From: Steroidobacteraceae bacterium
GTDB taxonomy: Bacteria; Pseudomonadota; Gammaproteobacteria; Steroidobacterales; Steroidobacteraceae
Direction: 5' to 3'
Assembly: GCA_025451275.1 (NCBI GenBank)
Contig: JANWKR010000010.1
Span: forward strand, 1-64,000
Length of the DNA: 64,000 bases
Part shown: one piece after another, positions 5,361-23,777 of the stretch
How the letters are laid out: the number at the start of each line of letters is the position of its first letter
How positions within the stretch are numbered: position 1 is the first letter of the stretch
Made by a program: the position numbers and the translations under genes
Notes under the pieces: model-generated
Seen by the model: the letters and a program-made list of their open reading frames with translations, nothing else
Told to the model about the DNA's origin: nothing
Databases searched by the model: none

Positions 5361-8111
5361 CTAGTGTGCCTCGTCCCAGTTGGCGCCGCTGCCGATGTCC
5401 ACCCGCAGCGGCACGCTGAGCTCGGCGGCGTTCACCATGTGCTCGCGTACCGCCGCGCTCGCCTCGGCGAGCGCGGCCCCGCGCACCTCGAAAACCAGCT
5501 CATCATGCACCTGCATGACGAGGCGCGCCGGGGAGCCGGGGCGGGCGCACCAGGCATCGAGGCTGATCATGGCACGCTTGATGATGTCGGCGGCGGTGCC
5601 CTGCATGGGCGCGTTGATGGCGCTGCGCTCGGCGTACTGACGCAGCTGGGCGTTGCCGGAGCGGATGTCCGGCAGGTACAGGCGCCGCCCGGACACCGTC
5701 TCGACGTAGCCGCGCTCGCGGGCGCTGGCGCGCGTCTCGTCCATGAAGCGCTTCACGCCCGGGTAGCGCTGGAAGTAGCGCTCGACGTACTGCTGCGCGG
5801 CGCCGCGTTCGATGCCGAGGTTGCGCGCCAGGCCGAACGGCGACATGCCGTAGATGAGCCCGAAGTTGATCACCTTGGCGGTGCGGCGCTGGTCCGCGGT
5901 GACCGCGTCCAGCCCGACCCCGAACACCTCGGCCGCGGTGGCGCGGTGCACGTCGCGGTCCTCGGCGAAGGCGGCCCTGAGGCCCTCGTCCCCGGACAGG
6001 TGCGCCATGATGCGCAGCTCGATCTGCGAGTAGTCGGCCGCCAGCAGCACGCAGCCCTCGGGGGCGATGAACGCCTGGCGGATGCGGCGCCCCTCGGGGC
6101 GGCGGATCGGAATGTTCTGCAGGTTGGGATCGACCGATGACAGCCGCCCGGTGGCCGCGACCGCCTGGGAATAGTTGGTGTGGATGCGCCCGGTGCGCTC
6201 GTTCACCTGCTCGGGCAGCTTGTCGGTGTAGGTGGACTTGAGCTTGGCGAGCGCGCGGTACTCGAGCACGATGCGCGGCAGCGGGTAGCTCTCGGCCAGC
6301 TCCTCGAGCACGTCCTCGGCGGTCGAGGGCTGCCCGGTCGGGGTCTTGCGCCGCACCGGCAGCTGCAGCCGCTCGAACAGGATCTGCTGCAGCTGCTTGG
6401 GCGACTCGATGTTGAATTCGTGGCCGGCCTCGCGGTGCGCCTGCAGTACCAGCTCCTGCAGCTGGCGCGCGAACTCGCGGCTCTGCGCGCGCAGCCGCTC
6501 GCGGTCGATGAGCACGCCGTAGTGCTCCATGGCGAGCAGCACCGGCGCGAGCGGCTGCTCGATCTCCCGGTACAGCTGCGCCAGCGCCGGCACCGACTCG
6601 AGCTGCGGCCACAGCGCCCGGTGCAGCCGCAGCGTCACGTCGGCGTCCTCGGCCGAATACTCGCTCGCCTTGTCGATGGGCACCTGGTCGAAGCAGATCT
6701 GGCGCGCGCCCTTGCCCGTGACCTCCTCGTAGCTGATGGTGCGCACGCCCAGGTAGCGCTGCGCGTCGGCGTCCATGTCGTGGTTGGTGGCGACGCTGTT
6801 CCACACGTACGACTCGAGCATGGTATCGAAGCGCATGCCGGCAAGCGCGATGCCGGCGTTGGCGAGCACGTGCGCGTCGTACTTGAGGTTGTGGCCGACC
6901 TTGCCGCGTGCGGCATCCTCGAGCAGCGGCTTGAGCGCCGCGAGCACCCGCGCGCGCTCGAGCTGATCGGGCGCACCCGGGTAGACGTGGCGCAGCGGCA
7001 CGTAGGCGGCCGTGCCCGGCTCGATGCAGAAGGACAGGCCGACGATCTCGGCGCGCATGTAGTCGAGGCTCGTGGTCTCGGTGTCGAAGGCGAACAGCTC
7101 GGCGCGGCCGAGTGCCGCCAGCCAGCGCTCGAAGTCCTCCCAGCGGGTGATGGTCTCGTAGTGGCGCGGCGTGTCGGCGAGTGCCGCTGCTGCCGGGGTC
7201 GCAGGCGCCGCGGGCGGCGGCGCCTCGCTCGCGGCCGCCGGCGCGCTGGCCGTCTCGCCGCCCTCCAGCTGCCGCAGCAGCCCGCGCAGCTCGTAGCGCG
7301 TGTACAGCTCGCGCAGCTTCATGACGTCCGGCGCGCGCGGCTCGAGCTCCTCGAGCGACAGCGGCAGCTCGAGGTCGGTCTTGATGGTCGCCAGGCGCCG
7401 CGACAGCTCGAGCGTGTCGAGCCCGGCGCGCAGGTTCTCGCCCACCTTGCCCGGCACCTCGGCGACGCGGCCGATCAGCTCGTCGAGCCCGCCGAACTGC
7501 TGCAGCAGCTTGGCGCCGGTCTTGGGGCCGACCTTGTCGATGCCGGGGATGTTGTCCGAGCTGTCGCCGATGAGGGCGAGGTAGTCGATGATCTGCTCCG
7601 GAAAGACGTCGAACTTGGCCTTCACGCCCTCGCGGTCGAGCAGCGAGTTGTTCATGGTGTTGATGAGCGTGATCGAGCCGTCCACCAGCTGCGCCATGTC
7701 CTTGTCGCCGGTGGAGATGAGCACCGTCTGCCCGGCGCGCGCCGCGCGACAGGCGAGCGTGCCGATGACGTCGTCCGCCTCGACGCCGGCGATGCGCAGC
7801 AGCGGCAGGCCCTGCGCCTCGATGATCTCCAGCAGCGGGGCGATCTGCGCGCGCAGGTCGTCGGGCATGGCCGGGCGGTGCGCCTTGTACGCGGCGAACA
7901 GGTCGTCGCGGAAGGTGCGGCCCGGGGCGTCGAATACCACCGCGATGCGGCGCGGCTGATAGTCCTTCATGAACTTCAGCAGCATGTTCAGCACCCCGAG
8001 CACCGCCCCGGTCGGCTCGCCGCGCGAGTTCGACAACGGCGGCAGGGCGTGAAACGCCCGGTAGACATAAGAAGAACCGTCGACGAGAACCAGGTCCGGA
8101 GAGCGCGCCAT
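5361..8111 (-). CDS. polA: DNA polymerase I
   Basis: 916 residues from ATG 8111 (MARSPDLVLVDGSSYVYRAF), which matches the usual PolA N-terminus. In-frame upstream codons would only add an unrelated 18-residue lead. The order is an N-terminal 5'-3' nuclease (about 1-290, with GDKDMAQL and the GDSSDNIPG helix-hairpin region), an Ala/Pro-rich linker near 300-330, a 3'-5' exonuclease with an intact DTET active site (FAFDTETTSLDYM), and a family A polymerase with motifs ADYSQIELR, RRTAKVINFGLIYG and QVHDELVFEV. It repairs DNA and removes Okazaki primers. It is a single gene, divergent from the DUF1800 gene. Confidence 0.98.
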   Translation of the reverse strand: MARSPDLVLVDGSSYVYRAFHALPPLSNSRGEPTGAVLGVLNMLLKFMKDYQPRRIAVVFDAPGRTFRDDLFAAYKAHRPAMPDDLRAQIAPLLEIIEAQGLPLLRIAGVEADDVIGTLACRAARAGQTVLISTGDKDMAQLVDGSITLINTMNNSLLDREGVKAKFDVFPEQIIDYLALIGDSSDNIPGIDKVGPKTGAKLLQQFGGLDELIGRVAEVPGKVGENLRAGLDTLELSRRLATIKTDLELPLSLEELEPRAPDVMKLRELYTRYELRGLLRQLEGGETASAPAAASEAPPPAAPATPAAAALADTPRHYETITRWEDFERWLAALGRAELFAFDTETTSLDYMRAEIVGLSFCIEPGTAAYVPLRHVYPGAPDQLERARVLAALKPLLEDAARGKVGHNLKYDAHVLANAGIALAGMRFDTMLESYVWNSVATNHDMDADAQRYLGVRTISYEEVTGKGARQICFDQVPIDKASEYSAEDADVTLRLHRALWPQLESVPALAQLYREIEQPLAPVLLAMEHYGVLIDRERLRAQSREFARQLQELVLQAHREAGHEFNIESPKQLQQILFERLQLPVRRKTPTGQPSTAEDVLEELAESYPLPRIVLEYRALAKLKSTYTDKLPEQVNERTGRIHTNYSQAVAATGRLSSVDPNLQNIPIRRPEGRRIRQAFIAPEGCVLLAADYSQIELRIMAHLSGDEGLRAAFAEDRDVHRATAAEVFGVGLDAVTADQRRTAKVINFGLIYGMSPFGLARNLGIERGAAQQYVERYFQRYPGVKRFMDETRASARERGYVETVSGRRLYLPDIRSGNAQLRQYAERSAINAPMQGTAADIIKRAMISLDAWCARPGSPARLVMQVHDELVFEVRGAALAEASAAVREHMVNAAELSVPLRVDIGSGANWDEAH

Positions 8112-8222
8112 GGAGGGTGAAAACCTTAAGGGGATCGCGAGTATAAGCGAGCCGCGCCGCCGCACCGGTCAACCCGGCCGCAGCGCCCGCGCTATAGGGT
8201 CAGGTGCCCGCCGGGAGCCGCC

Positions 8223-9620
8223 ATGTCCGAGCCGTTCACATCCGCGATCGCCGCCAACCGCTTCGGGCTCGGTGCCCGGCCGGGCGAGCTGGCCGCGATC
8301 GGTGGCGGTGGCCGCGACTGGCTGCGCGCGCAGCTCGCGGGCCCGCCGCCGCAGCTCGCCGCGGCGGGGCTGCGCTCCTGCACCGACATCCTGGCCGCGG
8401 CGCTCGAGCTGCGCCGTGAATTGCAGGCGGCGCGCAAGGCGGACGCGCAGGGCGTGGCCGCCGACCCGCTGCAGAAGCTGCCGCAGTTCCTGCGTCCCAT
8501 CTATGCAAGCGAGGTGACCGCGCGCCTGCAGCAGGCGGTCACGAGCGAGCGCCCGTTCCTCGAGCGCCTGACGCAGTTCTGGGCCAACCACTTCGCGGTC
8601 TCGATCGACAAGCAGTTCCTCGCCGGGCTCGCCGGCAGCTTCGAGCGCGAGGCGATCCGCCCGCACGTGCTCGGCAACTTCGCCGATCTGCTGCTCGCCG
8701 CCGAGACGCATCCGGCCATGCTCCTGTACCTCGACAACTACCTGTCGGTGGGCCCACACGCGCCGGCGGCGCTGCGCGCCGCACGCCGCGACGCACAGCG
8801 CAGGATCGGCATCAACGAGAACCTGGCGCGCGAGATCCTCGAGCTGCACACCCTCGGCGTCGGCGGCGGCTACACGCAGGCCGACGTCACCACCTTCGCC
8901 GCGGTGCTGAGCGGCTGGTCGATCGGCGGCGAGGGCGGCCGCTTTCGCGGCGGCGTGCCCGGACAGTTCCTGTTCCGGCCCGAGCTGCACGAGCCCGGCA
9001 CCAAGGTGGTGCTCGGCACGCGCTACCGCGACGACGGCTTCGGGCAGGGCGTGGCGGTGCTGCGCGACCTGGCGCGCGCGCGCGCCACCGCCCAGTTCGT
9101 CGCCACCAAGCTGGCGCGCCACTTCATCGCCGACGAGCCGCCGGCGGCGGCGGTCGCGCGCCTCGCCGACGCGTTTCACTCGAGCGGCGGGGACCTGCCG
9201 CGCGTCTACCACGCGCTGCTCGATGCGCGTGAGGCCTGGGACAGCGGCCTCGCCAAGTACAAGAGCCCCTGCGACTACGTGCTGTCGGCCTACCGCGGGC
9301 TCGGCCTGCCGGCCGATGCCGCGCACGCGCCGCTCGCCCCATTCGAGCTCCTCGGCCAGCGCACCTGGTCGCCGGGCTCGCCGGCGGGCTGGCCGGACCG
9401 CAGTGCCGACTGGGACGGCGCCGCCGCGCTCATGAAGCGCATCCAGTGGGCCCAGGCGCTCGGCGAGCGCCTCGGCGGCCGCTGCGACGCAGTCGCACTC
9501 GCCCCCGAGCTGCTCGGCGCCAACCTCGGCGCGGCGACCCGCGGCGCGCTCGCCCACGCGGCCAGCGCCGCCCAGGCGGTGACGCTGCTGCTGGCCGCGC
9601 CCGAATTCATGCGGCGCTGA
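8223..9620 (+). CDS. DUF1800 family protein
   Basis: 465 residues. The start (MSEPFTSAIAANRFGLGARPGEL), the block FWANHFAVSIDK, the LLYLDNYLSVG segment, and NENLAREILELHTLGVGGGYTQADV are diagnostic of DUF1800. No convincing signal peptide is visible, though family members are often exported. It is followed 19 bases later by a DUF1501 gene. The two families almost always occur as a pair whose biochemical role is unsettled; DUF1501 resembles alkaline-phosphatase/sulfatase folds. They are probably co-transcribed. Confidence 0.9.
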   Translation: MSEPFTSAIAANRFGLGARPGELAAIGGGGRDWLRAQLAGPPPQLAAAGLRSCTDILAAALELRRELQAARKADAQGVAADPLQKLPQFLRPIYASEVTARLQQAVTSERPFLERLTQFWANHFAVSIDKQFLAGLAGSFEREAIRPHVLGNFADLLLAAETHPAMLLYLDNYLSVGPHAPAALRAARRDAQRRIGINENLAREILELHTLGVGGGYTQADVTTFAAVLSGWSIGGEGGRFRGGVPGQFLFRPELHEPGTKVVLGTRYRDDGFGQGVAVLRDLARARATAQFVATKLARHFIADEPPAAAVARLADAFHSSGGDLPRVYHALLDAREAWDSGLAKYKSPCDYVLSAYRGLGLPADAAHAPLAPFELLGQRTWSPGSPAGWPDRSADWDGAAALMKRIQWAQALGERLGGRCDAVALAPELLGANLGAATRGALAHAASAAQAVTLLLAAPEFMRR

Positions 9621-9639
9621 GGCCGCCAGGAGCATCGCG

Positions 9640-10887
9640 ATGAGTACGCGACGTCAGTTCCTCACGCACGCGGCAAGCGCCGCCGGCGGCCTGTTCTGCA
9701 CCACGCGCCTGGCGTTCGCCGGCGCAACGGCCGCCAGCGGCGGCCGCCGCCCGCGCCTGGTACTGATCGTGATGCGCGGCGCGCTCGATGGCCTGGCCGC
9801 CGTGCCGCCCTACGGCGACCGCGACTACGCCGCGCTGCGGGGCGAGGCGGCGCTGCACGCGCCCGGCGCGCCCGGCGGCGCGCTCGCCCTCGACGGCTTC
9901 TTCGGGCTGCACCCCGCGCTCGAGTTCCTCGGCCAGAGCTACCGCGCACGCGAGCTCCTGGTGCTGCACGCGCTCGCGAGCCCCTACCGCGAGCGCTCGC
10001 ACTTCGACGGCCAGGACGTGCTCGAGAACGGCACGCCGCGGCCGCACGCGCTGCAGAGCGGCTGGCTCAACCGCGCGCTGGCGCACCTGCCGGGCGCGCA
10101 TCCGCGGGAGGCCGGCGTGGCGCTCGGCCAGAACGTGCCGCTGGTGATGCGCGGGCCCGCGGCCGTGACCTCGTGGTCGCCCTCGAAGCTCGCCGCCCCG
10201 GACGAGGACACCCTGGCACGCCTCACGGACCTGTACGCCGGCGACGCGCTGCTCGCCCAGCGCCTGGCCGACGGCCTGGCGGCGGATGCCATCGCCGCCG
10301 AGGACGGCGCCGGCATGACGCCGCTGCCGCCGGCGGCGGGCGATGCGGCGCGGCCGCGTGCTGCCCACAGCGCCCGCTATGCCGAGACCGTGCGCGCCGC
10401 GGCCGGGTTCCTGCGCCAGGAGGACGGGCCGCAGGTGGCGGTGTTCGACACCAGCGGCTGGGACACGCACGCCAACGAGGGCGGCGCGCAGGGCCAGCTG
10501 GCCACGCGCCTCGCCGGGCTGGATGCGGCGCTGGCGAGCCTGCGACAGGAGCTCGGTGCGGCATGGGGCGACACCGCGGTGCTCGCCATCACCGAGTTCG
10601 GGCGCACCGCCGCCATCAACGGCACCCGCGGCACCGACCATGGCACGGCGACCGCGGCATTCCTTATCGGTGGGGCGGTCGCCGGCGGGCGGGTGCTGGC
10701 CGACTGGCCGGGCCTGGCGCCGCGCCAGCTGTACCAGGGCCGCGATCTCGCCCCGACGCTCGACCTGCGCGCGGTGCTCAAGGGCGTGCTCGCCGGGCAT
10801 CTCGGCGTGAGCACGCGGGCGCTCGATGAGGAGGTCTTCCCGGACAGCGCGCGCCTCCGGCCGCTCGCGGGGCTGATGCGCGCCTGA
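9640..10887 (+). CDS. DUF1501 family protein with Tat signal
   Basis: 415 residues. The N-terminus MSTRRQFLTHAASAAGGLFC is a twin-arginine signal (RRQFL), so the folded protein is exported by Tat. The body has VLIVMRGALDGLAAVPPYGD, FGLHPALEFL, RSHFDGQDVLENG, DTSGWDTHANEGG and EFGRTAAINGTRGTDHGTA. These are the conserved DUF1501 blocks and resemble the metal-binding motifs of the alkaline phosphatase superfamily. It is paired with DUF1800 upstream, and the Shine-Dalgarno CAGGAG lies 9 bases before ATG. It is convergent with lptM 5 bases away. Confidence 0.9.
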   Translation: MSTRRQFLTHAASAAGGLFCTTRLAFAGATAASGGRRPRLVLIVMRGALDGLAAVPPYGDRDYAALRGEAALHAPGAPGGALALDGFFGLHPALEFLGQSYRARELLVLHALASPYRERSHFDGQDVLENGTPRPHALQSGWLNRALAHLPGAHPREAGVALGQNVPLVMRGPAAVTSWSPSKLAAPDEDTLARLTDLYAGDALLAQRLADGLAADAIAAEDGAGMTPLPPAAGDAARPRAAHSARYAETVRAAAGFLRQEDGPQVAVFDTSGWDTHANEGGAQGQLATRLAGLDAALASLRQELGAAWGDTAVLAITEFGRTAAINGTRGTDHGTATAAFLIGGAVAGGRVLADWPGLAPRQLYQGRDLAPTLDLRAVLKGVLAGHLGVSTRALDEEVFPDSARLRPLAGLMRA

Positions 10888-15597: not shown

Positions 15598-16782
15598 CTA
15601 CTTCTTGAGCTTCGCCGCGACGCGGCGGTAGGCCTCGCGGAACGGCAGGCCCTCGCTCACCACCAGGCGGTTGGCTTCCTCGGCGGCGTGGATCCCTGGA
15701 TCGAGCCGTATGGCGTCGCGCCGGAACGCGAGCGCCGCGACCGCGTCCGGCAGAATGGCGAGGCTGTCGGTGACCAGGTCGATGGCACGGAACAGCGGGA
15801 ACTTGATGAGCTGCAGGTCGCGCTGGTAGCCGGAGGGCAGCTTGGCGCACACGGCGAGCGCCTCGGCGAGGCAGGCCTGGGTGGTGGCGGCGCGCGCGCG
15901 CAGCAGCTCGAACAGGTCGGGGTTGCGCTTCTGCGGCATGATCGAGGAGCCGGTGGTGAAGGCTTCGGTGAGGGTCACGAACCCGAACTCGGACGTTGCG
16001 AACAGCAGTACGTCGGCGGCGAAGCGCGACAGGTCCTGCTGCAGCAGCGCCAGCTCGCACAGCAGCTGCGCTTCGGCCTTGCCGCGCGACAGCTGCACCG
16101 CGGTGACCGGCTCGTGCACGGTCTCGAACCCGAGCCGCGCGCGCGTCGCCTCGCGGTCGATCGGCAGCCCCGGGGGGCCGTAGCCGGCCGCCGAGCCGAG
16201 CGGGCTCTTGCCGAGGCGGCGCTGCACCGCGAGCAGTCCGGCCGCGTCGTCATCGAGCTCGGCGGCGAAGCCCTCCGCCCACAGCCGCACCGAGCTCGGC
16301 ATGGCCTGCTGCATGTGCGTGTAGCCGGGCAGCGGGGTGTCCGCTTCGCGCGTGCCCAGCGCGCGCAGCGCCTGCGCGCCGGCGCGGGCCGCGGCGGCCA
16401 GCTGCGCCACCGCATCGCGCAGGTACAGGCGCAGCGCCGTCAGCACCTGGTCGTTGCGCGAGCGGCCGAGGTGGATCCGCGCCCCCGCGCTGCCGGTGCG
16501 CGCGGTCAGGCGCCGCTCGAGCGCGGTCTGGCCGTCCTCGTCCTCGAGCTCGATGTGCCAGGCGCCGCGCTCGTGCTCGGCGCCGAGCGCCTCGAGCGCC
16601 GCCCGCAGCGCCGCCAGGTCCTCACCCGACAGCAGCCGCTGCGCGTGCAGCATCTCGGCGTGCGCGAGCGAGGCGCGCACGTCGTAGGCCACGAGCCGTT
16701 CATCCAGTGCGTAGTCCTCGCCTGCGGTGTAGCGCAGCACGCGGGCGTCGAGCGGTGCGCCCTTGTCCCACAGGCGCGTCAC
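15598..16782 (-). CDS. argH: Argininosuccinate lyase
   Basis: 394 residues from GTG 16782, which overlaps the argB stop (GTGA). ArgH cleaves argininosuccinate to arginine and fumarate. Seen: LWDKGAPLDARVLRYTAGEDYALD at the N-terminus (split here only for description), HLGRSRNDQV, PGYTHMQQAMPSSVRLWA and the fumarase/ASL signature GSSIMPQKRNPD. It is 50-70 residues shorter than typical ArgH because the C-terminal helices end early (FREAYRRVAAKLKK). All catalytic segments are kept. It is the last gene of the arginine operon. Confidence 0.93.
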   Translation of the reverse strand: MTRLWDKGAPLDARVLRYTAGEDYALDERLVAYDVRASLAHAEMLHAQRLLSGEDLAALRAALEALGAEHERGAWHIELEDEDGQTALERRLTARTGSAGARIHLGRSRNDQVLTALRLYLRDAVAQLAAAARAGAQALRALGTREADTPLPGYTHMQQAMPSSVRLWAEGFAAELDDDAAGLLAVQRRLGKSPLGSAAGYGPPGLPIDREATRARLGFETVHEPVTAVQLSRGKAEAQLLCELALLQQDLSRFAADVLLFATSEFGFVTLTEAFTTGSSIMPQKRNPDLFELLRARAATTQACLAEALAVCAKLPSGYQRDLQLIKFPLFRAIDLVTDSLAILPDAVAALAFRRDAIRLDPGIHAAEEANRLVVSEGLPFREAYRRVAAKLKK

Positions 16783-17711
16783 GGGCCGCTCTGCTGCTCG
16801 TCGGGCGTCAGGGCGTTGATGTCGGCGACGATCAGCGTGCCGGTGCCCTCGTTGGTGAACACCTCGCCGAGGATGCCTTCCGGGGAGCGGTACGACACCA
16901 CGTGCACGCGCCGCACGCCGCCGCGGATCGCATCCTCGATGGCCTTGGCCTTGGGCAGCATGCCGTCGGCGATGCGACCCTCCTCGCGCAGCCGCTTCAG
17001 GCCCTTCAGATCGGTGTAGGAGATGAGCGACCCGGGATCGGCCAGCTCGCCGAGGATGCCGGGCGCGCCGGTGCACAGGATGAGCTTCTCGGCCTCCAGC
17101 GCCGCGCCGATGGCGGCCGCCACCGTGTCGGCGTTGATGTTGAGCAGCGTGCCGCTCTCGTCGGCCGACAGCGGGCTCACCACCGGCATCAGCGCGTTGT
17201 CGAGCAGCTTCCTCAGCACCGTGGTGTCGACCGAGTCGATGTCGCCGACGAAGCCGAAGTCGACCATCTCGCCGGCCGCCGACCTGACCGGCGGGCGCTT
17301 GTGGGCGCGTACCAGCCCGGCGTCGACGCCGCTCACTCCGACCGCGTCGACGTCGAGGTCGCGGCAGATGCCCAGCACCTGGGTATTGATCAGGCCGTTG
17401 AGCACCATGGCGGTGACGTCGATGAACTTCTGGTCGGTGATGCGCCGGCCCTCGACCATGCGGCTCGGGTTGCCGAGCGCGGCGGACACCTCGGTGAGCT
17501 GCGGACCGCCGCCGTGCACCAGCACCACGCGCACGCCGAAGTAATGCAGGATCCCGATCTGCTCCACCAGCATGCGCGTGGCGACGCTGTCGGCGAACAC
17601 GCCGCCGCCGGCCTTCACGACGAAGGTCTTGCCCTTGTACATGCGGATGTAGGGCGCGGCGCTCTTCAGGGCGCGGATGGCGAGGGTCTGGTCGGCTCTG
17701 TGCATGATCAT
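16779..17711 (-). CDS. argB: N-acetylglutamate (acylglutamate) kinase
   Basis: 310 residues. The amino-acid kinase fold is clear: FVVKAGGGVFADS (ATP lysine and glycine loop), LVHGGGPQLTEV, GRRITDQKFIDV, and LLNINADTVAAAIGAAL. It ends GMLPKAKAIEDAIRGGVRRVHV and FTNEGTGTLIV. It phosphorylates N-acylglutamate, the second step to arginine. The first loop reads VKAGGG where most ArgB proteins have VKYGGN/VKLGG. The protein has no GNAT domain, unlike the fused NAGS-kinase of Xanthomonas, so it cannot supply its own acylglutamate. Two ATGs two codons apart (17711, 17705) are possible starts; argF' ends 25 bases upstream. Confidence 0.9.
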   Translation of the reverse strand: MIMHRADQTLAIRALKSAAPYIRMYKGKTFVVKAGGGVFADSVATRMLVEQIGILHYFGVRVVLVHGGGPQLTEVSAALGNPSRMVEGRRITDQKFIDVTAMVLNGLINTQVLGICRDLDVDAVGVSGVDAGLVRAHKRPPVRSAAGEMVDFGFVGDIDSVDTTVLRKLLDNALMPVVSPLSADESGTLLNINADTVAAAIGAALEAEKLILCTGAPGILGELADPGSLISYTDLKGLKRLREEGRIADGMLPKAKAIEDAIRGGVRRVHVVSYRSPEGILGEVFTNEGTGTLIVADINALTPDEQQSGP

Positions 17712-17736: not shown

Positions 17737-18732
17737 TCAGGGGCGCAGCAGGCGGTGCAGCACCGCCATCTGCGCCGGCAGGCGGTTGTAGGCCTCGCGC
17801 TGCACCACGCTGCGCGGGCCGTCGAGCACCGCGGCGGCGATCGCGGTGTTGCGCCGTACCGGCAGGCAGTGCATGACCCGGCACTCGGGCGCGGCGGCGA
17901 ACCAGTCCTCGCGCACGCACCAGTCGGTGAGGGCACTGCGCAGGCGCGCATCCGCGGCGGCGTCGCCATAGCAGGCGGTGGCACCCCACTCCTTTACATA
18001 GAGGACCTGGGCGCCCTCGAGCGCCTCGTCGCGCGCACTGGTCTCGCGCACCGAGCCGCCGGAAGCGGCCGCGGCCCGCCGCGCGCGCTCCATGAGCGGC
18101 GCCGGCAGGGCGTAGCCGTCCGGGCGCAGCACGATCACCTCCATGCCGCGCAGCGCCGCCATGTGCAGCGCCGCCGCCGGTACCGCCAGCGGCAGCGCGC
18201 GCGGGTGGTAGGCCCAGGACAGCACGAAGCGCGCCGCGCGCGGCACGGCCAGGTCGTCCAGGGTCTTCCAGTCCGCGAGCGCCTGGCAGGGATGGTTGAC
18301 CGCGGACTCGAGGTTGATGAGCGGCTTGTCGGTGAGGGCCGCCATGGCATTGAAGGTGCCCTCGGCGAGATCGTGCTCGAGGTCGCGGCCCTCGGCGAAG
18401 ATGCGGATGCCGAGCGCGTCGCAGTAGGAGGCGAGCACCGGGATGGCCTCACGCACGTGCTCGGCGGCCGCGCCGTCCATGACCACGTCCGGGCGCGTCT
18501 CCAGCTGCCAGCTGCCCTGGCCGGGGTTGATGACGAAGGAGCTGCCGCCGAGGCGCGCCATGGCCGCCTGGAACGAGGCCAGGGTGCGCAGCGAGGGGTT
18601 GAAGAACAGCAGCCCCAGCTGCTTGCCGGCGAGCGCGTGCGGCTCGGGCTGCTTCTCCAGGCGCCGCGCCAGCTCGAGCAGCGACAGCACCTCGTCGCGC
18701 CCGAGATCGGCCAGATCGACGAAACGCTTCAT
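17737..18732 (-). CDS. argF': N-acetyl- or N-succinylornithine carbamoyltransferase
   Basis: 331 residues. The carbamoyl-phosphate loop is FFNPSLRTLASFQ, not the STRT of ordinary OTCase. HCLPVRRN lies at 288-295, and GSWQLETR...VVMDG then EHVREAIPVLASYCD strongly resembles the acetyl/succinyl-ornithine class. It carbamoylates an N-acylornithine, so arginine is made through acylcitrulline. From memory, the acyl-specificity residue is Glu92 in Xanthomonas AOTCase and Pro90 in Bacteroides SOTCase; here the aligned residue is Ala90. The carboxylated Lys302 of AOTCase aligns with Met322. The ATG overlaps the argD stop (ATGA). The deacylase expected after this step is not in the window. Confidence 0.88.
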   Translation of the reverse strand: MKRFVDLADLGRDEVLSLLELARRLEKQPEPHALAGKQLGLLFFNPSLRTLASFQAAMARLGGSSFVINPGQGSWQLETRPDVVMDGAAAEHVREAIPVLASYCDALGIRIFAEGRDLEHDLAEGTFNAMAALTDKPLINLESAVNHPCQALADWKTLDDLAVPRAARFVLSWAYHPRALPLAVPAAALHMAALRGMEVIVLRPDGYALPAPLMERARRAAAASGGSVRETSARDEALEGAQVLYVKEWGATACYGDAAADARLRSALTDWCVREDWFAAAPECRVMHCLPVRRNTAIAAAVLDGPRSVVQREAYNRLPAQMAVLHRLLRP

Positions 18733-19922
18733 GGCGGCAGGTCACGCAACGCGTCGCGCAGCAGGTCGACGTGCTCCTCCTGCAGGATGAACGGCGGCAG
18801 CAGGCGCAGCACGTGCGGGTCGCTCGAGGTGCCGGTGAGGATGCAGCACTCGAGCAGCTCGGCCTGGATCTCCTGCGCCGGGCGCCGGGTCCGCAACCCC
18901 ACCAGGAGCCCGGCGCCCTGGCAGCCGGTCACCGGCCCGAGCACGCAGCTGCGGCGGATGTAGGCGCCCATGCGGCGCACGCGCTCGAGCAGCCTCTCCT
19001 CCTTGAGCGCGGCCAGCACCGCGATCATGGCCGCGCACGCCATCGGGCCGCCGCCGAAGGTGGTGCCGAGCGCGTCCGTCTTGAGCGAGGCGGCCACCAG
19101 CGGCGACATCATGAGGGCTGCGCACGGGAAGCCGTTGCCGAGCGCCTTGGCGGTGGTGAGCAGGTCGGGGCGCACGTTGTAGAAATTGGCGGCGAAGGGC
19201 TGCCCGGTGCGCCCCATGCCGCACTGCACCTCGTCGAATATCAGCAGCGCCCCGACCTCGTCGCAGCGCGCTCGCAGCGCCGCGAGGAACGCCGCCCCGA
19301 GGTCGACCGCGCCGGCCATGCCCTGCACCGGCTCGACGATCACCGCGGCGGTCTTGCGCGTTACGTGTGCGGCGACCGCCTTGGAGTCGCCGCGCGGGAT
19401 GAAGCTCACCTCGAAGGGCGTGCGCGGGAAGCCGTACCACTTGTCGCGCGCGCCCCAGCTCACCGCCCCGGCGGCGGCGGTGCGGCCGTGGAAGCCGCCC
19501 TCGATGGCGGCGACGTGCTCGCGGCGCGTCATGCGCAGCGCCACCTTGAGGGCGTTCTCGTTGGCCTCGGCACCCGAGTTCACGAAGAACACCCCGCCGA
19601 AGGGCAGTCCGGAGAAGCGCACCAGGCGCCGCGCCGCGCGGCTGCGCACGCGCATGGCGACTGCGTTGCTCTGGAACTGGCAGCTTTCCGCCTGCGCGGC
19701 GAGCGCCTTGGTCCAGCCGGGGTGCGCGTAGCCCAGGCTGGCGACGGCGTGGCCGCCATACAGGTCGAGCACGCGCTCGCCGCGGCCGTTGGTCAGCCAC
19801 ACGCCCTGGGCGGAGGCCACGTCGAACGGGTACTGCGCGAAAACCGGCGCGAGGAAGTCGCGCTGTCGCACGGCCTCGCGGATCGCGCTGGCGGAGGTCG
19901 CGGAGTCTTTCTTCTTTACCAT
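18729..19922 (-). CDS. argD: Acetylornithine (or succinylornithine) aminotransferase
   Basis: 397 residues, class III PLP aminotransferase. Cofactor-binding parts are NSGAEANENALKVA, FHGRTAAAGAVS, LLIFDEVQCGMGRTG (D230) and TTAKALGNGFPCAAL with the Schiff-base K259. It makes N-acylornithine from the semialdehyde with glutamate. It lies between argC and the transcarbamylase: argC follows argD's start by 13 bases upstream, and the argD stop overlaps the argF' ATG. Its position in the operon argues for biosynthesis rather than AST catabolism. Confidence 0.92.
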   Translation of the reverse strand: MVKKKDSATSASAIREAVRQRDFLAPVFAQYPFDVASAQGVWLTNGRGERVLDLYGGHAVASLGYAHPGWTKALAAQAESCQFQSNAVAMRVRSRAARRLVRFSGLPFGGVFFVNSGAEANENALKVALRMTRREHVAAIEGGFHGRTAAAGAVSWGARDKWYGFPRTPFEVSFIPRGDSKAVAAHVTRKTAAVIVEPVQGMAGAVDLGAAFLAALRARCDEVGALLIFDEVQCGMGRTGQPFAANFYNVRPDLLTTAKALGNGFPCAALMMSPLVAASLKTDALGTTFGGGPMACAAMIAVLAALKEERLLERVRRMGAYIRRSCVLGPVTGCQGAGLLVGLRTRRPAQEIQAELLECCILTGTSSDPHVLRLLPPFILQEEHVDLLRDALRDLPP

Positions 19923-19935
19923 GGCCTCGCGGCTT

Positions 19936-20997
19936 TCAGGTCCAGCCGGGTGCCGGCGCCGTGAGACCCGTCGTCTCGGGCAGGTCGAACAGGCGGTTCA
20001 TCCACTGCACGGCGCCGCCGGCGGCCCCCTTGGTGAGGTTATCGAGGGCGCATAGTACCGCGACCGTGTTGCCCCGCACTGCGGCAGACAGGTGTGCATA
20101 GTTGCTGGCGGCGACGTCCTTGACGCGCGGTGCTTCGCTCGTGACGCGTACGAACGGCGCCCGCGCGTAGTAGCTGCGCAGCGCGCCGAGCACCGCCGCG
20201 GTGTCGGCGGCGCGCGCCAGCGCCGCCTGCACGGTCACGTGGATGCCGCGCGCGAACGGCCCGGAGTGCGGCACGAAGGCCAGCTCGGGTGCGACCCCGG
20301 TGGCGGCACGCGCGCAGGCGACGACCTCCGGCACGTGACGGTGGGCGAGCGCACTGTAGCTGTAGAGGTCGCCGTGCCGCAGCGGGTGATGCGTGCCCGG
20401 GATGGGCTTGCGGCCCGAGCCGGTGCTGCCGGTGACGCCGCTCACGAACAGCGGCCCGCTGGTCAGCCCGGCGGCGAGCAGCGGTACGCACGCGAGCAGC
20501 ATGGCGCTGGCGAAGCAGCCGGGGTGGGCGACGTGCGCGGTGTCGGGGCGCGCCAGGTGCTCGGGCAGGGCGCAGGTGAACTCGCGCAGGCGCTGCGGCG
20601 CGCCGTGCGCGTGCGCGTACACCGCCTGGTAGGCCGCGGCGTCCGGGTAGCGGAAGTCGGCCGAGATGTCGACCACGCGTACTGCGGCGCGCGCCGGCTG
20701 CGCGGCGCCGAGCAGCGCGTCGACGAGCCCCGCCGACACCCCGTGCGGCGCGGCCGAGAACAGCGCCGCGCGCGGCGCTGCGCACAGCAGCTGCTGCAGC
20801 TCGGACTGCGAGCTGAAACGCGCCTCCGGGTAGGCACAGGCGAGGTGCGGGAAGGCGGCCGCGAGCGGCTCGCCCGGGCGGCTGTCCGAGAGCGCCGCGG
20901 CGAGCGCGAACTGCGGGTGCTGGGCGATGAGCCGCAGCAGCTCGCCGGCCACGTAGCCGCTGCCGCCGAGCACGAAGGCCGGGATGCGCGCGCTCAT
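19936..20997 (-). CDS. argC: N-acetyl-gamma-glutamyl-phosphate reductase
   Basis: 353 residues. The Rossmann start is FVLGGSGYVAGELLRLI, and the catalytic cysteine C161 is in AHPGCFASAML. VSGVTGSTGSGRKP and the late ALDNLTKGAAGGAVQWMN are further ArgC signatures. It reduces the acylglutamyl phosphate made by ArgB to the semialdehyde. The ATG overlaps the stop of the P-loop gene upstream (ATGA), so the unknown gene and argC are translationally coupled. Confidence 0.95.
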   Translation of the reverse strand: MSARIPAFVLGGSGYVAGELLRLIAQHPQFALAAALSDSRPGEPLAAAFPHLACAYPEARFSSQSELQQLLCAAPRAALFSAAPHGVSAGLVDALLGAAQPARAAVRVVDISADFRYPDAAAYQAVYAHAHGAPQRLREFTCALPEHLARPDTAHVAHPGCFASAMLLACVPLLAAGLTSGPLFVSGVTGSTGSGRKPIPGTHHPLRHGDLYSYSALAHRHVPEVVACARAATGVAPELAFVPHSGPFARGIHVTVQAALARAADTAAVLGALRSYYARAPFVRVTSEAPRVKDVAASNYAHLSAAVRGNTVAVLCALDNLTKGAAGGAVQWMNRLFDLPETTGLTAPAPGWT

Positions 20998-22076
20998 GCC
21001 GCCGCCGGCGCGGCGGTCTTGAGTCCCAGCGCCTCGATGACGCGGTCGCCGAGCGCGGCGCCGTGGCTCATGGCGTTGCAGGCCGGCACGCCCATCTGGC
21101 CGGTGATGATCTCGATGCCCACCTGGTTGTCGGTGGCGGGGCCGGTGACCACGCACGGCTCGATGCGGAAGCGCTCGCGCAGCAGCTTGACACCGCCCCA
21201 GGCGGCGACCGGGTCGTTGGCCGACAGCACCACGCCGCTGAGCGCGGTGCGGATGTCGGCACACTCGAGGATGGCGTCCACGCCGTAGGTGCCGAGGATG
21301 CCGTCGCCCAGCTCGAACACGATGACGTCGGGCCGGCCGGCGGCCAGCTCGGTGAGCATGGTACGGGTGAGCGCCGGACCGTTGACGCGCGTGGTGGTGA
21401 CCACCCCGAGGTCGGTGAAGATGGCGCAGCGGCGTGCGCCGGCATCCTCCATGGCGAGGATGTCACGCCGCAACGACACGCCGGTGGCCTTGAAGGCGTC
21501 CACCGTCAGCCCGCGGTGGCGCATGCGCGCAATGATGGCGCAGGCGGCGGCGGTCTTGCCGGCCTCCATGCAGGTGCCGGCGAGCGCCACCACGGGCACG
21601 CCGCGCGTGTCGAGCGCGGCGGCGGCATCGAGGCGCTTGGCGCCGACGCGAGCCGGCACGCCGATGCGCTCGCCGAGGTAGGGGAAGTGCAGCGCCACGC
21701 CGAGCACGCGGCAGTCGAAGGGCTTGCCCTTCTCCGGGTTAATCGAGTCGCACACGCCCAGCACGCCGCCGATGTTGAGCATCTGGATGACGTCGCCGGG
21801 GGCGACGCGCTCGGGCACGTGTCCGGAGTAGCCGAACAGCGCGCGGCGGTGGCCGAGCGCGCCGGCGACGATGTCGCCCTTGCCGACCTTGGCCATGCGG
21901 CCGCTGACCAGCTCGAGCGTGTTGTAGGTGGACTTGTTGTTGAGCACCTCGACCACCACCACCACGCCTTCCTCGGCGGGGATGTCGGGGGCGACGCGCA
22001 CCTCGTGCGCCAGGCCGCAGGCCTGGGTCACGGAGGCGAGCTTGTCGACCACCACCGAGCGCATGCCGTTCACCAT
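20994..22076 (-). CDS. P-loop protein of the arginine operon, BioD/DUF1611 (DgcN)-like; function unknown
   Basis: 360 residues from ATG 22076, one base after the argG stop; a start at 22121 would overlap argG. The N-terminal part (1-155) is beta-rich with no motif I know. The C-terminal part (160-350) is a SIMIBI-type NTPase fold with a P-loop GTCMEAGKT at 167-175, then AFKATGVSLRRDILAMEDAG, VIVFELGDGILGTYG and, at the end, MGVPACNAMSHGAALGDRVIEAL. The P-loop/FKATG spacing and the G-x-P-x-C...HGA end resemble DUF1611 proteins, some of which (DgcN) are, as I recall, N-acetyltransferases acting on D-glutamate. It is flanked and coupled by argG and argC, so a role in arginine synthesis is likely. 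Its reaction is not established. Confidence 0.7.
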   Translation of the reverse strand: MVNGMRSVVVDKLASVTQACGLAHEVRVAPDIPAEEGVVVVVEVLNNKSTYNTLELVSGRMAKVGKGDIVAGALGHRRALFGYSGHVPERVAPGDVIQMLNIGGVLGVCDSINPEKGKPFDCRVLGVALHFPYLGERIGVPARVGAKRLDAAAALDTRGVPVVALAGTCMEAGKTAAACAIIARMRHRGLTVDAFKATGVSLRRDILAMEDAGARRCAIFTDLGVVTTTRVNGPALTRTMLTELAAGRPDVIVFELGDGILGTYGVDAILECADIRTALSGVVLSANDPVAAWGGVKLLRERFRIEPCVVTGPATDNQVGIEIITGQMGVPACNAMSHGAALGDRVIEALGLKTAAPAAA

Positions 22077-22077
22077 C

Positions 22078-23322
22078 TCAGCGATCCTTCTGCTGCCGGG
22101 CGCGCTCACCGGCGCGCACATGAAACACCCCGGGGAGCGCGGCGATGCGCGAGAAGCCGAGCGCGTCGCTGGCCGACCACTCGCCGGCCGCCTCCCCGTA
22201 CACGCCGCGCGAGGCGGCCATCAGCGAGTAGGGCGAGTCGACGCCTTCGACGAACAGCGCGCCGGTCTGCAGGAGCACGTGCACCTCGCCGGTGACGCGC
22301 TGCTGCGAGCTCGCGAACAGCGCCTCGATGTCGCGACACACCGGGTCGAGCAGCTGCCCCTCGTGCACCAGGTCGCCGTAGGGTTGCGCCAGCAGCTCCT
22401 TGATGCGCTGCTGGCGCCCGGTGAGCACCAGCTTTTCGAGCTCGCGGTGCGCGCTCAGCAGCACCTCGGCGGCCGGGGCCTCGAAGGCGACGCGCCCCTT
22501 GGTGCCGATGATGGTGTCGCCGAGATGGATGCCGCGGCCGATGCCGTAGGGTGCCGCCAGCGCCTCGAGCGCCTCGATGAGAGCCACCGGCTCGAGCGCG
22601 CGCCCGTCCAGCGCCACCGGTCGTCCCTGCTCGAAGCGCAGCGTGTGGCGTAGCGGGGCGCGCGGCTGCGGGAACGCGCCGCGCGTCAGGATCCAGGCCT
22701 CCGCGGGGATGCTGCCGGAGGAGGTGAGGGTCTCGGTGCCGCCGATGGTCACGCCCCACAGCCCGCGGTTGACGGAGTACTTCGCGCCGGTCGGCGGCAG
22801 TGGCAGGCCGCGGCTGTGCAGGTAGTCGAGCTCGTCCTGGCGCCTGAAGGCCTGGTCGCGCACCGGCGCCAGCACCCTGAGGTCGGGGGCCAGGGTGCGC
22901 AGCGCGACCTCGAAGCGCACCTGGTCGTTGCCGGCCGCGGTGCAGCCGTGCGCGACGGTGTCGGAGCCGAGCTCGCGCGCCATGCGCGCGATCGTCTGTG
23001 CCTGCATGACGCGCTCGGCGCCCACGCACAGCGGGTACAGCGCGCCGCGGCGCACGTTGCCCATGATGAGGAAGCGCAGCACCTGCTCGAAGTAGCCGGC
23101 GCGCGCATCCACCTGGTGGTGTGCGACCGCGCCGAGCGCGCGCGCACGCTCGGCCAGGGTGCGCGCGGCGGCGGCATCGATGCCGCCGGTGTCGACGGTG
23201 ACCGTGATCACCGGGCGGTGCTCGCGCTCGATGAGCCAGGGCACCAGGAACGAGGTGTCCAGCCCGCCCGAGTAGGCGAGCACGATGGGCGCGGGGCCCG
23301 TTGGCGACGGCGGCGCGGCCAT
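22078..23322 (-). CDS. argG: Argininosuccinate synthase
   Basis: 414 residues from ATG 23322, two bases after the argR stop. The PP-loop is VLAYSGGLDTSFLVPWL (SGGLDTS at 18-24). AHGCTAAGNDQVRFEVAL, TGAKYSVNRGLWGVTIGG and GTKGRVAFEAPAAEVLL are ArgG landmarks. The ATP-dependent enzyme joins citrulline and aspartate. The length and the LDYLHSRGLPLPPTGAKYSVN segment fit the shorter ArgG branch. It is the second gene of the operon. Confidence 0.95.
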   Translation of the reverse strand: MAAPPSPTGPAPIVLAYSGGLDTSFLVPWLIEREHRPVITVTVDTGGIDAAAARTLAERARALGAVAHHQVDARAGYFEQVLRFLIMGNVRRGALYPLCVGAERVMQAQTIARMARELGSDTVAHGCTAAGNDQVRFEVALRTLAPDLRVLAPVRDQAFRRQDELDYLHSRGLPLPPTGAKYSVNRGLWGVTIGGTETLTSSGSIPAEAWILTRGAFPQPRAPLRHTLRFEQGRPVALDGRALEPVALIEALEALAAPYGIGRGIHLGDTIIGTKGRVAFEAPAAEVLLSAHRELEKLVLTGRQQRIKELLAQPYGDLVHEGQLLDPVCRDIEALFASSQQRVTGEVHVLLQTGALFVEGVDSPYSLMAASRGVYGEAAGEWSASDALGFSRIAALPGVFHVRAGERARQQKDR

Positions 23323-23324
23323 GC

Positions 23325-23777
23325 TCAGACCGGGAACAGGGTGCGCAGGCGGCCGACGAGCTCGTCCTGGGCACGTGCGCTCGCGGTGGCGATGAAAATG
23401 GTGTCGTCGCCGGAGATGGTGCCCGCGACCTCGGGCCACTCGGCCCGGTCGATGGCGACCGCCACGCTCTGCGCGGCCCCGATGGTGGTACGCAGCACGG
23501 TGAGCGACGGGCCGGCGCGGCGCAGGGCGCGCACGAACTGGGTGAGGGCGCCGAAGTCGCCGTTGGCGCGCGTCACCTCATCCGGCGGCAGCGCGTAGCG
23601 GCCGTTGGCCTTGAGCACGCCGAGGTCGCGCAGGTCGCGGCTGATTGAGGACTGCGTGGCGTCGAAGCCGGCCTTCTTCAACAGACGCACCAGGTCCTCC
23701 TGCCGCGGCACCCGGCCGTCTCGCAGGATGCGCACGATGGCGGCGCGCCGCTCCAGTTGCTGCGCATCGCTCAGCAT
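23325..23777 (-). CDS. argR: Arginine repressor ArgR
   Basis: 150 residues, normal length. The N-terminal winged helix has DATQSSISRDLRDLGVLKANG, the DNA-recognition helix of ArgR. The C-terminal hexamerisation/arginine-binding domain ends with EVAGTISGDDTIFIATAS (the GDDT motif binds arginine). It is the first gene of the arginine operon, immediately downstream of two ARG boxes, so it almost certainly represses itself and the seven genes after it. This arrangement is tidier than the usual unlinked argR. Confidence 0.94.
   Translation of the reverse strand: MLSDAQQLERRAAIVRILRDGRVPRQEDLVRLLKKAGFDATQSSISRDLRDLGVLKANGRYALPPDEVTRANGDFGALTQFVRALRRAGPSLTVLRTTIGAAQSVAVAIDRAEWPEVAGTISGDDTIFIATASARAQDELVGRLRTLFPV

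Follow-up and report, generated by a model that had tools for sequence, protein, structure and literature searches.

A P-loop protein encoded between argG and argC as a candidate N-acylglutamate synthase in arginine operons of the Steroidobacterales

The window analysed here, a stretch of 64,000 nucleotides from a Steroidobacteraceae bacterium (assembly GCA_025451275.1, contig JANWKR010000010.1, positions 1 to 64,000), contains an arginine biosynthesis operon in which a gene for a 360-residue P-loop protein, hereafter X, is sited between argG and argC. We propose that X probably makes the N-acylglutamate from which arginine is built. All genes of the operon are on the minus strand, in the order argR-argG-X-argC-argD-argF'-argB-argH, from position 23777 to 15598. 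They encode the arginine repressor (argR, 23325-23777), argininosuccinate synthase (argG, 22078-23322), X (20994-22076), N-acylglutamyl-phosphate reductase (argC, 19936-20997), a class III aminotransferase of the ArgD type (argD, 18729-19922), an acylornithine carbamoyltransferase (argF', 17737-18732), an acylglutamate kinase (argB, 16779-17705) and argininosuccinate lyase (argH, 15598-16782). Searches with Pfam and NCBIfam confirmed argR, argG, argC, argD, argF' and argB, with argH identified through Pfam only. ArgB is a stand-alone kinase of 308 amino acids, consisting of the kinase domain alone. The stop codon of argG and the start of X are one base apart, and the TGA of X overlaps the ATG of argC. 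An earlier note on this DNA had described the open reading frame of X, its strand, its motifs, the spacing from argG and the translational coupling to argC, all of which we found as described; its account of the operon as holding argB, argC, argD, argF', argG, argH and argR, with an ArgB that lacks a GNAT domain, was upheld by the domain searches.

Several invariant residues of X lie in its C-terminal part. The P-loop GTCMEAGKT occupies residues 167-175 (21552-21578), where G167, M170, G173, K174 and T175 are invariant among 64 aligned orthologs. It is followed by FKATG at residues 195-199, of which the KATG portion (residues 196-199; 21480-21491) has Lys196, Thr198 and Gly199 invariant in the same alignment. 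Glu255, in the sequence ELGDG (residues 255-259; 21300-21314), is likewise invariant in the 64 orthologs, and we propose it as an acidic residue on the metal or nucleotide side of the site. Close to the C-terminal end is the sequence GVPACNAMSHGA. Met5 is kept in at least 90% of the aligned orthologs and may be the true start. A longer reading frame of 375 amino acids, beginning at 22121, was also considered, and the start at 22076 was preferred.

None of the customary first-step enzymes (ArgA, ArgJ or a fused NAGS) was detected alongside this operon. Scans of X with Pfam and NCBIfam gave nothing above any cut-off, and neither a GNAT nor an ArgJ domain was found in it at E<=1. In the window's genome there was no match to ArgJ, and the sole match to the ArgA model was ArgB itself, whose 138 bits fall below the model's cut-off (202.85). 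Because this genome is incomplete (2.49 Mb in 149 contigs, 81% complete), the survey was made over the order, with a sample of 147 genomes that includes the window's own. Profile model searches found ArgJ in none of the 147 and ArgA above cut-off in none. The lack of argA and argJ to which the earlier note had pointed in the operon thus extends, for matches above cut-off, to the window's genome and to the order sample. The ArgA model also catches ArgB, and hence could be used to sort the types of ArgB.

Orthologs of X are present in 109 of the 147 genomes, spread over 8 of the 16 families, with identities of 58-91% (the window's own aside) and of at least 61% for fragments; six further genomes of the order have only a relative of 29-35% identity. 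A match of the stand-alone ArgB type was found in all 109 genomes with X (split in one of them), and an ArgB fused to N-acetylglutamate synthase (NAGS), the NAGS-kinase type, in none. Nineteen other genomes have an ArgB reading frame of 356-466 residues, with a weaker and different match to the ArgA model, and two have a short ArgB match which we took to be a fragment of the NAGS-kinase type; no ortholog of X occurs in any of these 21. Among 12 fetched loci of this second type, ArgB was 436-457 amino acids long in all 12, passed PRK04531 in 10 of the 10 scanned for it and had PF04768, the acetyltransferase domain of NAGS, in all 6 that were scanned for that, the two scans jointly covering all 12 loci. 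The 15 genomes without any ArgB match (G009, G013, G023 and 12 others) also lack an ortholog of X, and are probably arginine auxotrophs or reflect gaps in assembly. The remaining two genomes have a stand-alone ArgB and no X; their contigs do not reach the expected position of X, one of them ending inside argD and the other starting at argC. One family of the order includes both states. Thus, X and the NAGS-kinase replace each other cleanly, though in a partly lineage-bound manner.

Gene order was identical to that of the window in 20 of 20 fetched loci with X, from 19 genera and 8 families. All 80 further loci keep this neighbourhood: both argG and argC flank X in 73, and in the other 7 one side of X is taken by argG or argC and the other by the end of the contig, an adjacency far beyond chance. 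Outside the order, a sample of 321 genomes from the class gave X at 44-47% identity in four genomes from three other families. Three of these (L181, L182 and L184) have the arrangement argD-argF'-argB-argH-argG-X-argC with argR diverging, and the fourth (L183) has argG-X-argC on a short contig. A sample of 398 genomes from the phylum added one genome of another class (G717), with X at 71% identity. At this locus (L220, 6589-10239), X belongs to a four-gene unit, argR-X-argC-argB, with no further arg gene within 19 kb; the carbamoyltransferase of the same genome is of the ordinary ornithine type (argF) and is encoded elsewhere. No match to ArgJ was found in the L220 genome, where the ArgA model was not run. 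This unit ties X to the kinase and the reductase, and hence to the first steps of the pathway rather than to carbamoyl transfer. The unit may have been acquired horizontally.

The carbamoyltransferase encoded beside X gives an indication of the acyl group. According to a review, acetylornithine carbamoyltransferases are distinguished from succinylornithine carbamoyltransferases by Glu92, Asn185 and Lys302, as against A/S/P/V/Q, P and V/I/E, respectively (PMC4581275). The GapMind paper states that the first of these positions, when occupied by S, P, A or V, brings about a preference for the succinyl substrate (PMC7311316). We compared 88 ArgF' proteins from X loci, taken from the window, the 20 fetched loci and the 67 of the 80 further loci with a match of sufficient length. 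The first position is Ala in 88 of 88 and the second Pro in 88 of 88; the third is Ala in 51, Val in 36 and a gap in one. In the window the three specificity residues are Ala90, Pro181 and Ala297, the first two of which are succinyl-type at the Glu92 and Asn185 positions. The ArgF' proteins of NAGS-kinase loci (11 from 12 loci, one locus having no argF') are of the acetyl type, with Glu in 11 of 11, Asn in 11 of 11 and Lys in 10 of 11. In the four genomes with X from the class sample, the residues are P/P/E twice and V/P/E twice. To judge from these residues, the type of synthase and the specificity of the carbamoyltransferase change together. The switch in ArgF' leads us to read the intermediates of bacteria with X as succinylated, and succinyl is most likely the acyl group of the pathway.

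It is rather unlikely that X is an acylglutamate synthase which uses acetyl or another small acyl group, with the ArgF' changes having some other cause, an explanation that is partly contained in the one we favour. It would accord with DgcN (7xrj), whose PDB title names an N-acetyltransferase and which resembles X in the fold of the C-terminal domain, and with Ala297 of the window's ArgF', which lies outside the published succinyl set. Against it, the first two residues are succinyl-type in 88 of 88 X loci compared with 0 of 11 NAGS-kinase loci, and the first of them alone is tied to succinyl preference by GapMind. The earlier note's suggestion that X makes the N-acylglutamate is well supported by the phyletic pattern and the gene context; the note did not settle the acyl group, and the ArgF' residues favour succinyl over acetyl.

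An AlphaFold2 model of X, built with 64 sequences, had a mean predicted local distance difference test score (pLDDT) of 87.2 and a predicted template modelling score of 0.86. In the model, residues 1-155 are predominantly beta and lack any helix as long as four residues, and residues 156-360 form an alpha/beta domain; when residues 1-154 were modelled alone without an alignment, the pLDDT was 31.7. Comparison of the modelled C-terminal domain with VIA-align gave Z-scores of 17.3 for CTP synthase, 16.7 and 16.5 for the DUF1611 structures 2g0t and 2obn, 16.2 for dethiobiotin synthetase and 15.8 for DgcN (7xrj), so that these matches are close to tied as far as the model goes. Foldseek placed CTP synthase, an SRP-receptor GTPase and dethiobiotin synthetase in its top ranks. 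The C-terminal domain thus appears, from the model, to have the SIMIBI P-loop fold that DUF1611 also has.

The earlier note had also placed X with DUF1611 and DgcN, and this link stands in part. The fold of the C-terminal domain is shared, and among five scanned relatives of X one (L051) passes the PF07755 cut-off of 25 bits with a score of 27.8, while a second (L056) comes close to it with 24.4. For X itself, DUF1611 (PF07755) is the best Pfam match, but at 15.6 bits it falls short of that cut-off, and PF07755 did not match any of three other scanned orthologs of X at E<=1. Neither DUF1611_N in Pfam nor the dethiobiotin synthetase model TIGR00347 in NCBIfam matched X at E<=1. An hhalign comparison of X with a DUF1611 profile (of only three sequences) gave a probability of 11%, over columns 166-340 in the C-terminal half only, and the structural likeness to DUF1611 is equalled by that to BioD and CTP synthase. 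By the tests made, X shares a fold class with DgcN and is not a member of DUF1611. Indeed, a genome of the window's own family (G010; loci L217 and L218) has, besides X, two genuine members of DUF1611, of which one is a close relative of DgcN and matches 7xrj at E 2e-106, and so X is not simply the DgcN of that order. This co-occurrence also means that counts of dgcN in the order need care. A paper on hadal metagenomes reports dgcN in Woeseiales (PMC12363236).

Two families of more distant relatives, P1 and P2, are clearly connected with X at the level of profiles. With hhalign, P1 matched X at E 9.5e-39 over 306 columns and P2 at E 1.7e-34 over 330 columns; the group of L051 and L056 belongs to P1 and is clearly related to X. 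P1 and DUF1611 profiles matched with a probability of 6%, and a combined profile of X and P1 found no match in the PDB at E<=1. P2 matched MobB and BioD chains weakly, at E 4.5e-4 and 6e-4. In an alignment of the three families, from which one P2 sequence that lacks the P-loop pattern was left out, the common residues are G-T-x-M-x-x-GKT, K-x-TG, Asp205, D-x-G at 222-224 and Glu255. The three DUF1611 sequences in the same alignment have Arg in place of Lys196 and Thr in place of Asp205. In the P2 alignment, Lys196 lines up with the Lys that begins K-x-x-TG in dethiobiotin synthetase.

On the evidence of distribution, context and residues, we consider it quite likely that X is an N-acylglutamate synthase, with succinyl as the likeliest group, and X is probably a non-homologous replacement for NAGS. 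X would open the arginine pathway with its first committed step, the N-acylation of L-glutamate, most likely with succinyl. The acylglutamate would then be phosphorylated by ArgB, reduced by ArgC and transaminated by ArgD to N-acylornithine, which ArgF' would carbamoylate before a deacylase, plausibly DapE, frees citrulline. The catalytic work would be done by the SIMIBI-type P-loop domain at the C-terminus, joined to the mostly beta N-terminal domain. The conserved Lys and Thr of the P-loop, together with Lys196, Asp205 and Glu255, suggest that X binds a nucleotide. Dethiobiotin synthetase and CTP synthase use ATP to activate an oxygen before an amine attacks. By analogy, X may be a ligase in which ATP activates a carboxylate (succinate) and the amine of glutamate then attacks, as in dethiobiotin synthetase. 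Alternatively, the P-loop may hold the ADP part or the diphosphate of an acyl-CoA. We regard these two options for the donor as near even, and the roles suggested for single residues follow from analogy with the chemistry of dethiobiotin synthetase. As a more specific and still tentative proposal, X could be the founding member of a class of ATP-dependent glutamate N-succinyl ligases with the SIMIBI fold, belonging to neither the GNAT nor the ArgJ type, with DapE sharing the desuccinylation.

Several observations weigh against X as the synthase or against succinyl as the group. Since presence and absence partly track lineage, the number of independent events behind the split of 109 genomes with X and 21 with the NAGS-kinase is much smaller than 130. 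There is also overlap between samples, as several contigs from the set of 80 further loci belong to genomes counted in the 147. X lies below the DUF1611 cut-off, and none of its relatives has an established function; D-glutamate is reportedly the substrate that DgcN acetylates. The third ArgF' residue is Ala rather than V/I/E in those 51 of the 88 loci, and in the window Ala297, at the Lys302 position, is not Lys and is yet outside the V/I/E set. The ordinary carbamoyltransferase of the L220 genome is uninformative on the acyl group. A second match to the ArgA model occurs in 14 of the 109 genomes with X. In 12 of them it falls within the GNAT portion (E 1e-8 to 3e-6) and in one it is the other half of a split ArgB, with the last left unassigned. 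In two of these genomes, which belong to one genus, a GNAT gene lies directly downstream of argH (L214, 5475-5993; G082:C24:90881-91129). Lastly, the screen for NAGS consisted of the ArgA and ArgJ models, with PF04768 alone and the Bacteroidetes-type NAGS (BT3761/Cabys_1732) outside it, and the ArgA model covered the order and not the five genomes with X beyond it, which are themselves a small sample.

These GNAT matches bear on a different explanation, namely that X is a nucleotide-binding helper, for instance one that regulates ArgB or repairs metabolites, and that the acylglutamate comes from an unrecognised GNAT encoded elsewhere, as has been proposed for Bacteroidetes. SIMIBI proteins include accessory proteins such as HypB and MobB, for which there are matches in fold or weak ones in sequence, and the 12 genomes with a GNAT-part match, two of them beside the operon, were found in a GNAT screen made up of the ArgA and ArgJ models. 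However, 95 of the 109 genomes with X have no second ArgA-model match at E<=1e-5. X is also absent wherever the NAGS-kinase is present, which fits replacement and not a helper of ArgB, and in the L220 genome, of another class, it accompanies only argR, argC and argB. On balance we hold the helper explanation to be unlikely, though it deserves some weight. The GNAT gene beside argH was itself considered as a genuine NAGS and rejected: one of the two was scanned and proved to be a general GNAT protein of 172 amino acids (PF00583), with no NCBIfam match at E<=1e-20. By eye, there is no GNAT gene downstream of argH in the window or in G070, a member of the genus of those two genomes.

The last question concerns the deacylase. 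Eleven of the NAGS-kinase loci have both argG and argB; a gap of 1.1-1.3 kb separates the two genes in 10 of these (L069 has none), and in the one locus read out the gap holds an M20 gene of the type PRK08737 (argE'). X operons have no gap of this kind and lack the argE' deacylase of their sister operon type. M20 matches were found in all 147 genomes of the order, with five genomes carrying X having a single match at E<=1e-5. On re-examination of ten genomes with X, a single M20 match at E<=0.001 was seen in G037, G119 and G135. The sole M20 protein of G037 (100% complete) and of G119 (98% complete) is DapE, and the top M20 match of G048, G070 and G029 is also DapE; G052 additionally has ArgE, and G041 and G048 have further M20 proteins. 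AstE/aspartoacylase was considered as the deacylase and found in none of 12 genomes. We propose that DapE, succinyl-diaminopimelate desuccinylase, plausibly cleaves N-succinylcitrulline in genomes that have no second M20 deacylase; an enzyme with a different fold could also do this.

The same gap could be filled if X were a transacylase that took the acyl group off N-acylcitrulline or N-acylornithine, passed it on to glutamate and so replaced both NAGS and the deacylase, much as ArgJ closes the acetyl cycle by transacylation. One protein would then account for two missing activities, in keeping with operons that lack argE' and with the two genomes whose sole M20 protein is DapE. However, transacylation needs no conserved nucleotide-binding P-loop, and DapE could itself deacylate the intermediate if the group is succinyl. 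The ordinary ornithine carbamoyltransferase of the L220 genome further implies that acylcitrulline is probably not made there, although transfer from acylornithine could still take place. We therefore regard a transacylase as improbable.

Comparison with known systems helps to place X as the proposed synthase. DgcN and other DUF1611 proteins (PF07755; 7xrj, 2obn, 2g0t) have, like X, a SIMIBI C-terminal domain, a GT-x4-GK loop and an F-K/R-ATG stretch; X differs in having Lys rather than Arg before ATG, in the N-terminal 155 residues, which are mostly beta in the model, and in its arginine operon context. BioD and the amidoligase domain of CTP synthase share the fold of the C-terminal domain and, by way of P2, a weak match over the P-loop and the K..TG stretch, whereas X has an extra beta domain and a different gene context. 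The Xanthomonas-type NAGS-kinase (PRK04531), with argF' and argE', takes the same place in the pathway and is the sister operon type in the same order. Unlike the X operons, it has PF04768 fused to ArgB, an acetyl-type ArgF' and argE' of type PRK08737 (one locus scanned). The classical ArgA, ArgJ and the short and fused forms of NAGS catalyse a reaction of the type proposed for X, which has no GNAT or ArgJ domain. The succinyl pathway of Bacteroides (BT3761, BT3717, BT3549) resembles that of X bacteria in its succinyl-type carbamoyltransferase and in that no ArgA or ArgJ was found, according to GapMind. It differs in its proposed synthase, BT3761, which GapMind puts forward for Bacteroidetes and gives as more than 50% identical to the NAGS Cabys_1732 (PMC7311316). 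A 2015 review of NAGS described the gene for the succinylation of glutamate as not identified (PMC4490483). A literature search, judged by titles and the beginnings of abstracts, returned no report on X; the term succinylglutamate synthase turned up in GapMind and in a paper on the gut microbiome.

Predicted arginine pathways are known to have gaps at the NAGS step. If our proposal is true, X closes this gap in the greater part of an order (109 of the 147 genomes sampled) and adds a non-homologous solution for the first step of a central pathway. It would then also be possible to predict from sequence which bacteria use succinyl and which use acetyl intermediates in arginine synthesis. In addition, X would be a starting point for work on a broader group of P-loop proteins; plasmid records annotate some of these as DUF1611, as dethiobiotin synthase or as hypothetical.

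Some features of this wider set were seen in passing. In 15 of 15 fetched genomes, P1 adjoins an M20 hydrolase (L051 at 7331-10151, L052-L057, L059-L064, L185 and L186), and in 13 of the 15 a flavin-reductase-like gene, labelled by eye, lies on the other side of the M20 gene; the contigs of the other two end in the M20 gene. This pairing would fit acylation and deacylation, and it is possible that P1 and its M20 neighbour form such a pair for an unknown amine. A plasmid of Priestia megaterium (NZ_CP085446.1; L160, 2700-11388) encodes an X-like protein of 28% identity within a putative cluster for a phosphonate natural product, together with a PEP mutase-like protein, a thiamine diphosphate enzyme, two ATP-grasp proteins, an M20 protein, an LLM monooxygenase and an ornithine carbamoyltransferase. 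On plasmids of Sulfitobacter and Paracoccus (L158 and L159), a P2 relative annotated as DUF1611 stands directly before the gene for the ATP-binding protein of an ABC transporter.

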